Below are positions 52,744-56,679 of a DNA stretch of 64,000 bases, piece by piece. The stretch's first letter is position 1. Each line of letters begins with the position of its first letter. Source of the stretch: Mayamaea pseudoterrestris (taxonomy: Eukaryota > Bacillariophyta > Bacillariophyceae > Sellaphorales > Sellaphoraceae); contig BROI01000001.1 of the NCBI GenBank assembly GCA_027923505.1, positions 2,412,001 through 2,476,000 of the forward strand, in the 5' to 3' direction. The position numbers and the translations under genes are program-made. Under the pieces are notes generated by a model. It was not told the DNA's origin and did no database searches. It was given only the letters and a program-made list of their open reading frames with translations.

Positions 52744-53901
52744 ATGCCAAGCAAGAGCTCATCAAATGACAGTCTCGTCGAAAACAACGACGAAGCTCCA
52801 GTCCGAAAGGACAAGAAGTTTAAACGCATCAGAGGCCTGCTGGGTGGCGATAAGAAGGATAAGAAGCACGGAAAGGGAAAGGGAAAGAACAAGGGCAAGC
52901 ACGCTGACGACGACGCAACCTACAATGTCAATGTCGACGAACGCTCGATTGCGACGGCACCCGCGAAACACGACGAACCTCTTCGAAGAGGTTCCGATGC
53001 CAAGCGCTCGTACATGCTCAAGGTGGTGCTTCTCTTGATGGATCCGAAATCCCGTAGGTTTGAACTGCTGCAACTGGAATTTGACTCCCTCAAGGCGTTG
53101 GTGTCCGATGTCCTCGCCCAAATTCCGGTTTCAGTCACGGAAGATGTGCTTCGCGAGCAAACCTACCTTGGTATTTGCGGGCATGACGGAAAGGAAATGC
53201 CTTTGAACGCTTTGTTGTCGGAGTTTTGCAAGGGTAGTGAAGTGTTTGTTGCAGTACCCAAAGGAGTGGCGGCCAAGGAGTGTGCCCGCCTGGCAGTGCC
53301 TATTTTGACCGACGACAAGGTGGTGAACATGTTGCGGTCCAGTGACATTAACATGAATGAATGGCTCGACAACAAGAACAAGAAAACTAGCAAAAAGGCT
53401 GTGAAACTGTCTTCATCTTCAGGAAAAGTCATTGCGACTGACGATGATTCACACAAAGGTGGGAAGTCTGCCGGTCTTATTGCAGTCATTTTGGCAGCTA
53501 TCGTTTTGCAGGTTTATCATTTATACATTTCTGCGCCAATCAAGCCAGGTCATATTGTTTCGCCTGGTATTCATCTTAGCAAGTGCGGTGTCTTGTCCAT
53601 TTTGCCCACATGCTCGAATGAATACATGACATTCGCGGATGAAGAAACAATCGTCATGAAAGATGCAGCCGATAAAGTTTTGTGGTCTATCAGGGGAAAC
53701 ACTTGCAAAAAGGGAGATAAGGGATGTATTCGTGGCATGAAGGTCGGCGAGGATGGGGAGCTTATCATTGGCGGCAAAGTCGTTGACAGTGTACGCACCT
53801 ATACAGATGATGTTAAGCTTTCGCCATGGCCATTTGCCGAGGAACCCAAGATTCGAATCAAGCGCGACACTCCAGAGTCTTCAAAAAGCTCTGGTGATTA
53901 A
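52744..53901 (+). CDS. Single-span membrane protein of unknown function, 385 residues
   Basis: Not recognised. Residues 1-60 are strongly basic (KKDKKHGKGKGKNKGKH). Residues about 90-175 form a compact domain (SYMLKVVLLLMDPKSRRFELL...) followed by EVFVAVPKG, which looks like a beta-grasp fold, possibly ubiquitin-like (weak). A membrane helix lies at about 240-262 (SAGLIAVILAAIVLQVYHLYI). The C-terminal part has paired cysteines (KCGVLSILPTC, CKKGDKGC) and probably faces a lumen where they pair. Signal-anchor topology with a cytosolic N-terminus is expected from the positive charge. Confidence 0.65.
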   Translation: MPSKSSSNDSLVENNDEAPVRKDKKFKRIRGLLGGDKKDKKHGKGKGKNKGKHADDDATYNVNVDERSIATAPAKHDEPLRRGSDAKRSYMLKVVLLLMDPKSRRFELLQLEFDSLKALVSDVLAQIPVSVTEDVLREQTYLGICGHDGKEMPLNALLSEFCKGSEVFVAVPKGVAAKECARLAVPILTDDKVVNMLRSSDINMNEWLDNKNKKTSKKAVKLSSSSGKVIATDDDSHKGGKSAGLIAVILAAIVLQVYHLYISAPIKPGHIVSPGIHLSKCGVLSILPTCSNEYMTFADEETIVMKDAADKVLWSIRGNTCKKGDKGCIRGMKVGEDGELIIGGKVVDSVRTYTDDVKLSPWPFAEEPKIRIKRDTPESSKSSGD

Positions 53902-54344
53902 TGATAGCAATCTGTTGCGTTACGTTCCGCTGTCCAACTTCGTATGATGCTTCGTTCCTGCCTTCTAATGAGCATGTTTTTTACGCTCGAATACATAAAA
54001 ATCTTGCAGTACTTCTACAATCATGTCGTTAACTATAGGATCGCTGTTAAAGAAGAATGGTGCCAAGCGCACGTGCGAAAGTAGGTTCCATTTTAGTGAC
54101 AATGTCGCGGACACTCAGCGTCGAGGCTCGTGGCATTCCACTAATACATACTGATACATAGTGACTGCATATCACAGCAAAGAGTTGATATTATTTACGC
54201 GTACAGCGACTCGCTACCTTTTGAAGGAGCGTCAGATATGAGTTTAACCCAATACACTGCTGTCAGGCGCGGAACGTTGTATCCCTTCGCCGTCATGCGC
54301 AGCTATCTTTGGTAACCGAACCTATAAGCGAGCCCTCAAAGTAT
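53902..54344. other. 3' region of the selenoprotein gene
   Basis: No gene between the stop of the single-span protein and the stop of the DsbA-like gene. It holds the candidate SECIS element near its right end. Confidence 0.5.
54249..54312 (-). promoter_or_regulatory. Candidate SECIS element
   Basis: On the minus strand, 33 nt after the stop codon. Hand folding gives an outer helix CCAA/TTGG, then GCTG/CAGC, the quartet ATGA (54296-54293) opposite TGA (54265-54263), the upper helix GGCG/CGCC and GGGAT/GTTCC, and an apical loop with AA at 54278-54277. ATGA to AA is 14 nt, close to the eukaryotic rule. Stems are short and contain G-U pairs and small internal loops, so a fold search should confirm it. 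Confidence 0.5.
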
Positions 54345-55229
54345 CTATTTCGACCAATGGCTTCCCCGTTTGACAATATCATCCGAAACGCCCAATATCT
54401 GGCCAAAGAGGGGACCGCTGACCACTTGGCCACGTTTCTCAATCTCTCGAAACAATGGAATGAAGGCGTCGGCATGTGCAGCACCATCAATCAAGGTACT
54501 ACCTTCGATAATGAACTTTGGAATGCCATGGATACCCAGCTGGCGAAGTGTTGAAAGAGCGCGCTCAATCTCAACTCTCCCTTCGTTGCCATTCAAAAAG
54601 TCAAGGAGAGAAGTTTCCGATGGCGCCTTGTTGGGCAGCAGAACTTTGAGCTCTCTGGCAACCGTCGCAGCAAGTTTCGGACGATCATTTAATGAATGTC
54701 CATCAACAAAGTAATATACGTTCAGCAAGTCGTAAATAGTTTCACTCACTTCCAGTCCATACTTCTTGCCTAGATGCTGAATGAGTCGGTGCGACGCCAT
54801 TGTATTCGACGCCAGTCTGTCCAAATTAAAGAATTTGATCCCTGCTTCTTCGCCTCGACCTTTCAAGTCATGTTGTCTCTTTTGTCGCTCCCAGCCTGCA
54901 CGGCCGCCCCACTTCTTGACAAGCCTTTCTCGATTAGATTCAATGTAAGGCTTTTCTTCAGAGTAGTCTGGCTCCAAGAAAAACGGAACCCGAAGCACGG
55001 AAAAGGCAATGGGACGAGGTGCGTTTGGCAATGGATTGCTAAGAACATGCTCCATTGCGCGATTCAAATGCTTCTTCCCTATATACCCGTTGGGTCACAT
55101 TGTATCGCTGACCAATTCAATGGGAATGACAAGTGGTGCTGCAGTCTCCGTCGCCGATGAGGACGCCATCGTCCTAAACGATTTGTGCATGAAAGCTTTA
55201 CCGCCAGTGGATGTGGCCAATCTAATCAT
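54345..55229 (-). CDS. DsbA/FrnE-like thioredoxin-fold selenoprotein (in-frame TGA = Sec45)
   Basis: Reading from ATG 55229 the frame is open except for one TGA at 55097-55095, and ends at TAG 54345 (294 residues counting Sec). Around the TGA it encodes IELVSDTM-U-PNGYIGKKHL. In FrnE/DsbA-like proteins this is the vvSDt.CPWCyiGK active site, so TGA stands exactly at the first redox Cys; the second Cys is Gly. Coding similarity continues on both sides. Downstream are RVPFFLEPDY, the helical insert, and LGIHGIPKFIIEG with the cis-Pro loop. Other ATGs (MHKSF, MASSS) are possible starts; the N-terminus looks like a short organelle presequence. A model starting after the TGA would lose the active site. 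Divergent from the sulfotransferase gene. Confidence 0.7.
55095..55097 (-). other. Candidate selenocysteine codon (TGA)
   Basis: In-frame TGA between ATG (Met) and CCC (Pro), at the CPWC position of the DsbA-like fold. See the gene entry and the SECIS entry. Confidence 0.65.
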
Positions 55230-55568: not shown

Positions 55569-56679
55569 ATGAACCGCTTTCTCGCTTCTTTATCATCAAT
55601 CGCTCTCTTGTCGTTGTTTTACTATTCATTGGAACGAAAACAAATAAATGCACCTGCAAGTTTTGATTGGAAGAATGGGGTATCAACGACAAAGCCCGAG
55701 CATCAGATGATACATGAGGTGCAGCCGGAATGGCAGCCGCCATTGGAAGCGTCAAGTCTGTTTTCACATCTTGCTCCTGCAATCTTCAATACAACAGCTC
55801 AATCAACAGCAGCTCCAATGTTCTGGCATGTTCCCAAATCAGGTAGGCATACTTGGAAAGTGAGGCGATGACTTTGTATATAGTATCAGTTAGCAAGTCG
55901 CTAAAAATATTTCATTTGTTCGCTCAGGTGGAACGTCCATGAAATTCTTTGGAGCTTGTCTGCAGCTAATAGTTGTCGACCAGCGAGGATCAGATGCTTC
56001 GCCTTCGCTGAAAGTCATTGCTGGGAGGGACAAGCGCTTTGTCAACTTCAATTCATGCTCTGTGGACGGCTTGAAACAGGCGCATGAACTTGGCTATGCC
56101 GCAGTGCAGCCTGCCGAAGTGATTTATTCGCCGTTCATATTAGAAGCAATTGACCTTCTGTTTGAAGAAACAAACCAAGCTCAGGTCTTTGTACTTTTGA
56201 GACATCCCGTTGATCGAATCGTTTCGCTCTTTTACTATTTGCAGCATGCAAGGTGGGAAGGGGCCTACGATCCGAGTTTGAAAAACATTACGCTGCTAGA
56301 ATACGCCCAAGAGCTACCCTACGATAACACTTTGACACGCATACTTACCAAAAAGGATGGTGACAACGGCAATGTACCCCTCAATCAAGACGATTTGGAA
56401 TTGGCAAAGTATTTCATGATGCGATACGTATTGGTCGGGTTAACGGACCAGGTAGACGAAAGCGTTGACCGTTTTGGCCAGGCCTTTGGCTGGCAAAACC
56501 GTCCACAATGGACGCAATGTCGGGCGCGGGCACAAAAGGGCCAGAACCGCTTTCGGCATCCGCAACTGACACCAGATGATGAGGCATACAAGGTTTTGGC
56601 AAGCAAGCACGAATATGATATACAGCTTTATCAATTTGCGACAGAACTGTTTGACCAGCAAAGAGCCATGTTTGAATAG
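55569..56679 (+). CDS. Type II membrane sulfotransferase (2 exons)
   Basis: Exons 55569-55842 and 55928-56679, intron 55843-55927 (GTAGGC...TCAG); 341 residues. The intron splits the PAPS-binding loop: PKSG joins GTS to give WHVPKSGGTSMK, the 5'-phosphosulfate loop. The 3'-phosphate motif is LLRHPVDRIVSLFYY. An N-terminal signal anchor (FLASLSSIALLSLFYYSL) and short stem indicate a Golgi-lumenal type II enzyme, as for polysaccharide O-sulfotransferases. It would move sulfate from PAPS to a glycan or protein; the acceptor cannot be told. The sequence is shorter than animal heparan sulfotransferases. Confidence 0.85.

Follow-up and report, generated by a model that had tools for sequence, protein, structure and literature searches.

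Selenocysteine (Sec)-containing members of the DsbA family have been described in several lineages. As far as the available portions of the published reports go, Sec-DsbA with a U(or C)XXC site is found in bacteria, Micromonas, Ciona and amphioxus (Branchiostoma) (PMC2874816), DsbA-like selenoproteins with a UXXC site are known from the Sargasso Sea (PMC1088965), and Sec-containing DsbA also occurs in marine invertebrates (PMC3473315). In algae, Mamiellophyceae and M. viride were reported to have Sec-FrnE (PMC6627142), DSBA counts as one of the most widespread algal Sec families, and diatoms carry 20-44 selenoprotein genes (PMC7539508). In Thalassiosira pseudonana, 16 selenoproteins were listed, one of which was named thioredoxin-like (PMC2375036). 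Here we analysed a 64,000-nucleotide stretch of the diatom Mayamaea pseudoterrestris (contig BROI01000001.1, positions 2,412,001 to 2,476,000; hereafter the window), the minus strand of which carries, at 54345-55229, a FrnE/DsbA-like gene with one in-frame TGA. An earlier reading made from the sequence alone had proposed that this TGA encodes Sec at the active site, noting that algal selenoproteins of this kind had been reported, as is indeed the case (PMC2874816, PMC6627142 and PMC7539508, in the portions available). The thioredoxin-like selenoprotein of T. pseudonana could belong to the same family.

An in-frame TGA at the active site of a FrnE/DsbA-like gene

The gene runs on the minus strand from an ATG at 55229 to a TAG at 54345, comprising 294 codons with no frameshift and only one internal stop, the TGA at 55097-55095 (codon 45), which is flanked by ELVSDTM and PNGYIGKKHL. 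Its predicted product, 294 residues including Sec45, matched a single Pfam family, DSBA (28.2 bits against a cut-off of 25.6), and no NCBIfam model at E <= 1. With the TGA read as Sec, the active-site codons TGA CCC AAC GGG (55086-55097, minus strand) give U-P-N-G, and the protein would carry a single selenol, with no second Cys in the active site and no Cys elsewhere. Residues 1-31 (55137-55229, minus strand) form an N-terminal extension rich in S/T/A and containing a few R/K, similar in kind to that of a relative (P0006, see below), and may represent a targeting peptide. Searching the whole genome with the gene product at E <= 1 returned the gene itself only, as did a protein search with residues 30-76 alone (E 1.1, five candidates).

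The position of the TGA was examined by aligning a profile built from five sequences with the structure database. The profile matched FrnE (5cp1/5cnw; two distinct sequences in six entries) with a whole-sequence E of 3.6e-05 and a single-stretch E of 0.0052, and SCO1869 (3gl5) with values of 0.00012 and 0.0015, respectively. In both alignments, codon 45 and G48 match the first and second Cys of CPWC, respectively. A Pfam DSBA search of the genome found one other gene, L025 on contig C27, whose site reads YSDIACPWCYIGEKRL. In a one-sequence comparison, L025 aligned with residues 32-266 of the window protein (24% identity, E 4e-07), and codon 45 stayed on the first Cys of the L025 CPWC with each of the letters C, X, W and S entered for it. 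These alignments bear out the earlier claim that the TGA occupies the place of the first CPWC Cys. Together with the profile match, a thioredoxin-like fold with a helical insert places the protein in the FrnE/DsbA superfamily (PF01323). The first structure model was weak for residues 1-48 (predicted local distance difference test score, pLDDT, <50), and the structure-model alignment held 32 rows, 5 of them intact in the upstream part. In the fold comparison, kappa-class glutathione S-transferase (GST) and 2-hydroxychromene-2-carboxylate (HCCA) isomerase ranked below FrnE. Designer pentatricopeptide repeat proteins, which topped the single-protein PDB search, were taken as chance repeat matches; in the alignments shown, their repeats scored about 9-11 bits each on the stretch 202-270, and none passes alone.

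Conservation around the TGA codon in diatom relatives

Two protein searches gave 464 and 598 matches, the best 120 of each being listed; the resulting 147 proteins include the database copy of the window gene itself (P0001). The other 146 listed proteins share 59-72% identity with the query over 78-99% of its length, and the named organisms among them are all diatoms (Cylindrotheca, Entomoneis, Thalassiosira, Cyclotella and Ditylum). At the place of the TGA, 119 of the 146 begin after it, 23 have other preceding letters and 4 are intact through it. P0001 also begins downstream of the TGA, and the loss of the active site in ordinary gene calling is thus just what the sequence-only reading had anticipated.

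The four intact relatives read SDTLCPNG (P0005), SDTLWPNG (P0004 and P0006) and SDTMWPNG (P0015). Residues 32-44 of the window protein match those of the intact relatives (PLVIPIELVSDTM vs PLIIPVELISDTL, ALIIPIELVSDTL and others) and those of FrnE as well. In these 4 of the 146, conservation is found on both sides of the UGA, as had been claimed for its flanks, and homology is not confined to the part after the TGA. The UGA position corresponds to Cys in P0005, FrnE and L025, so the Cys homolog sought for the gene exists. At the place of the second Cys, Gly is present in the window gene and in all four intact relatives, in line with the predicted loss of the resolving Cys, and no other conserved Cys was found among the 146 listed relatives. 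The Trp in P0004, P0006 and P0015 is most simply explained as a TGA called with code 4, and the Cys in P0005 as an ordinary replacement of Sec.

A further trace of the TGA may be present in proteins that start close to it. Among the 147 listed proteins, five (P0002, P0018, P0022, P0027 and P0065) start with [MV]TQ[WR], a pattern that was spotted before being counted and for which about 0.01 would be expected by composition. This start would result from A/G-TGA-CCC-AAY-GG read at +1, with the frame shifted by one base. Two of the five, P0027 and P0065, have MMETSP-style names and are taken as transcripts on that account, MMETSP being a transcriptome project. Back-translated by hand, their starts appear to correspond to the TGACCCAAY(GG) readout expected here, and both fit UPNG[YF]IGK given one base dropped by the caller. 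For 20 of the 23 relatives whose N-termini differ, the match to the family resumes at G[YF]IGK, suggesting that many relatives have an intron in the Gly48 codon; one of these, P0008, carries PLVVPVELV further upstream. The window gene is contiguous at this junction. Prokaryote genomes and viral contigs, each searched with two peptide patterns suited to close relatives only, yielded none.

Selenocysteine machinery and other selenoprotein genes

The genome encodes tRNA-Sec(UCA), the Sec-specific elongation factor eEFSec, SepSecS and SelD. A single contig holds two tRNA-Sec genes (anticodon TCA), at C7:409783-409868 (-) and C7:1075734-1075820 (+), which share 80% identity over 75 nt. The eEFSec protein has 713 residues and its best solved match is selenocysteine-specific elongation factor 5izk (4.5e-126); it scores under the bacterial selB cut-off. 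SepSecS (L005) lies at C2:208941-209636 (-), and the stretch matched by the profile includes a TGA, in GTATGTGA after VPVG. This TGA was rejected as a Sec codon, since GTATGTGA looks like a splice donor at the start of an intron.

Four other genes carry a TGA where Sec would be expected and served as controls for the Sec insertion sequence (SECIS): a SelT-like gene (L014, FYCMG*GMKRN), two GPX genes (L016, NVASK*GKT; L017, NAACL*GKT) and a Sep15/SelM-like gene (L018, SCSG*ALNRF). Beside the two Sec-type GPX genes, the genome contains a third with a Cys form, NVASQCGYT (C11:901498-901821, -). A pair of genes that each contain two Rdx (SelW-like) domains was also found, at C1:1882953-1883603 and C1:1894367-1895017. 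They are separated by about 11.4 kb and share 89% identity over 1068 nt; the one translated has CTGC motifs and no Sec.

A candidate SECIS downstream of the stop codon

A motif scan identified a candidate SECIS at 54256-54303 on the minus strand, starting 41 nt past the stop codon. It comprises ATGA (54296-54293), an apical AA (54278-54277) and TGA (54265-54263), with GCTGC/GCAGT as helix I. As GCUGC-gc-AUGAC-GGCG-aa-GGGAU-[ACAAC]-GUUCC-g-CGCC-UGA-ca-GCAGU, it can form nine helix II pairs and an AUGA/UGA quartet, with AA in the apical loop. We used a strict ad hoc scanner requiring ATGA, apical AA, TGA, an inner fold of <= -10 kcal/mol, at least 9 helix II and at least 5 helix I pairs, and a loose form accepting any RTGA/GA quartet; the criteria were set with the candidate already in view. 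On both strands of the window, the candidate was the sole strict match. Dinucleotide shuffles gave 80 strict matches in 15,744 kb (0.0051 per kb), a rate at which about 0.002 would be expected in the 443 nt reaching to the end of the convergent open reading frame at 53901.

Several results weigh against this element. The loose scanner gave 4 matches in the window, the same density as in shuffles (0.031 vs 0.030 per kb), and the 101-nt stretch holding the candidate is no stabler than its shuffles (z +0.60; 142 of 200 shuffles are as stable). When applied to the sequence downstream of the four control selenoprotein genes, the strict scanner recovered none and the loose one only one (L014), so the candidate lends moderate support at most. 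The Rfam model SECIS_1 has no match at the candidate; since this model gave zero matches genome-wide and at the loci L014, L016, L017 and L004, its silence is weak evidence, being shared by the selenoprotein loci L014, L016 and L017. Of the candidate SECIS noted earlier after the stop, the ATGA/AA/TGA motif and pairing are present, whereas unusual stability and a family-model match were not found. The candidate is plausible by its motif, as moderate evidence at best.

Alternative explanations for the TGA

These data support the selenoprotein assignment, mainly through the relatives, and we hold with high confidence that the window gene is a selenoprotein gene of a FrnE-like DsbA branch, with UGA45 read as Sec by way of a 3' untranslated region (UTR) SECIS and a mono-selenol product. 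Three other explanations of the TGA were considered, each of which draws on part of the evidence. Were the TGA a true stop, translation would start downstream, for example at M59, giving a shortened protein that lacks the active site, with the 44 codons before the TGA forming a leader or an upstream open reading frame. The starts of the 119 relatives and P0001 past the TGA favour this explanation, as do the conserved columns, most of which lie downstream, though only 5 of the 32 alignment rows are intact upstream. However, such starts are typical of automatic callers on selenoprotein genes, and the Ciona DsbA selenoprotein gene was likewise misannotated to start past its TGA (PMC2874816, in the portion available). 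Moreover, residues 32-44 are conserved with the readthrough relatives and FrnE, and the shortened protein would miss the first strand and the active-site loop of the thioredoxin fold. We consider a true stop very unlikely.

A decaying pseudogene, its former Cys codon turned into a stop by mutation, might be suspected, given that TGA is one base from TGC/TGT and that one relative has Cys. Against this, the 294 codons contain a single stop and no frameshift, the listed relatives other than P0001 show the identity and coverage given above, and the TGA appears to recur in up to eight relatives (three with Trp and five with +1 readouts); decay is, in our view, less probable still. An intron that removes the TGA might be considered because many relatives seem to have an intron nearby, to judge from the 23 with other N-terminal letters, 20 of which rejoin at G[YF]IGK. 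In the window gene, however, the frame is contiguous across the TGA, the nearest GT...AG pair found by eye spans 34 nt and would break the frame, and excision of the TGA would also delete flanking codons, on either side of it, that the intact relatives conserve. This last objection weighs against the possibility, raised with the original proposal, that splicing takes out the TGA, and we regard an intron as the least probable of the three.

Proposed mechanism

Under the selenoprotein interpretation, UGA45 would be decoded as Sec by the cell's own tRNA-Sec, eEFSec, SepSecS and SelD, and we infer that a 3' UTR SECIS, most likely the element at 54303-54256, directs the insertion. The product would be a protein of thioredoxin-like fold with a single selenol. 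An intramolecular selenenylsulfide is impossible, because the protein has neither a second active-site Cys nor any other Cys. In the mono-selenol cycle that we propose as the likeliest chemistry, Sec would attack a disulfide, a peroxide or an electrophile, and glutathione would resolve the intermediate, in the manner of monothiol glutaredoxins or kappa-class GST relatives. For this glutathione chemistry we see roughly even chances. Alternatively, Sec may be incorporated and take part in disulfide exchange with a partner protein or in a diselenide dimer, without glutathione. This possibility, which concerns the chemistry only, is a serious one, to which we give somewhat less weight.

Other observations in the window and genome

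Over the whole genome, the pattern ATGACGGCNNNNAA was counted 67 times on one strand and 65 times on the other, compared with 21 and 23 for a reversed control, an excess that is perhaps due to codon usage. In the window, the open reading frame at 55939-56679 (+) contains LLRHPVDRIVSLFYYL; we take it to resemble a sulfotransferase-type protein.

Significance and comparison with known systems

The window gene is a likely case of a DsbA-family enzyme with one chalcogen residue left, and with selenium there. It bears on why some enzymes retain Sec, as selenol reactivity may be needed in the absence of a resolving Cys. It also adds a probable selenium client in a group whose selenium use is ecologically relevant. 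Most of the listed relatives are deposited without the active site, indicating a family-wide annotation error, and many are named dithiol-disulfide isomerases, a function hardly possible for a protein without a Cys pair. Diatoms may share a mono-selenol FrnE/DsbA branch with U-P-N-G in place of CPWC and Sec as the sole conserved redox residue, a generalization that could equally well prove right or wrong. The named listed relatives span pennate and centric genera; among them, a TGA readout is found only in Cylindrotheca and Entomoneis, and the named centric entries begin past the TGA site or have other letters before it. If such a branch exists, a dithiol oxidoreductase became a selenoenzyme that depends on glutathione, through replacement of its first Cys by Sec and loss of the resolving one, and most database entries of the branch lack its active site.

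FrnE of Deinococcus radiodurans (5cnw, 5cp1) and SCO1869 (3gl5) have CPWC where the diatom protein has U-P-N-G; they share 17-19% identity with it, and the diatom protein has zero Cys. The Cys paralog L025 belongs to the DSBA family like the window gene, but retains CPWC. Kappa-class GST (1r4w, 3rpp, 1yzx, 3rpn) and HCCA isomerase (3fz5, 2imd) are more distant in sequence at 9-13% identity. Both employ Ser and are not known to use Cys or Sec.

In the portions available, no motif is stated for diatom members of the algal DSBA selenoprotein family (PMC7539508) or for the Sec-FrnE of Mamiellophyceae (PMC6627142). The term UxxG is absent from the main text of PMC7539508 as available, and no report of a UXXG DsbA was found in the titles and abstract openings of the literature on diatom, stramenopile or FrnE selenoproteins, a search whose coverage ended short of supplementary tables. 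The missing second Cys is thus the part for which no report was found. According to the available portions of PMC2874816 and PMC1088965, the DsbA selenoproteins described there have Sec at the first active-site Cys, as in the window gene, but they retain the second Cys (UXXC) where the window gene has Gly. Judged from its sequence, the diatom protein is very probably a mono-selenol variant of a known selenoprotein type.
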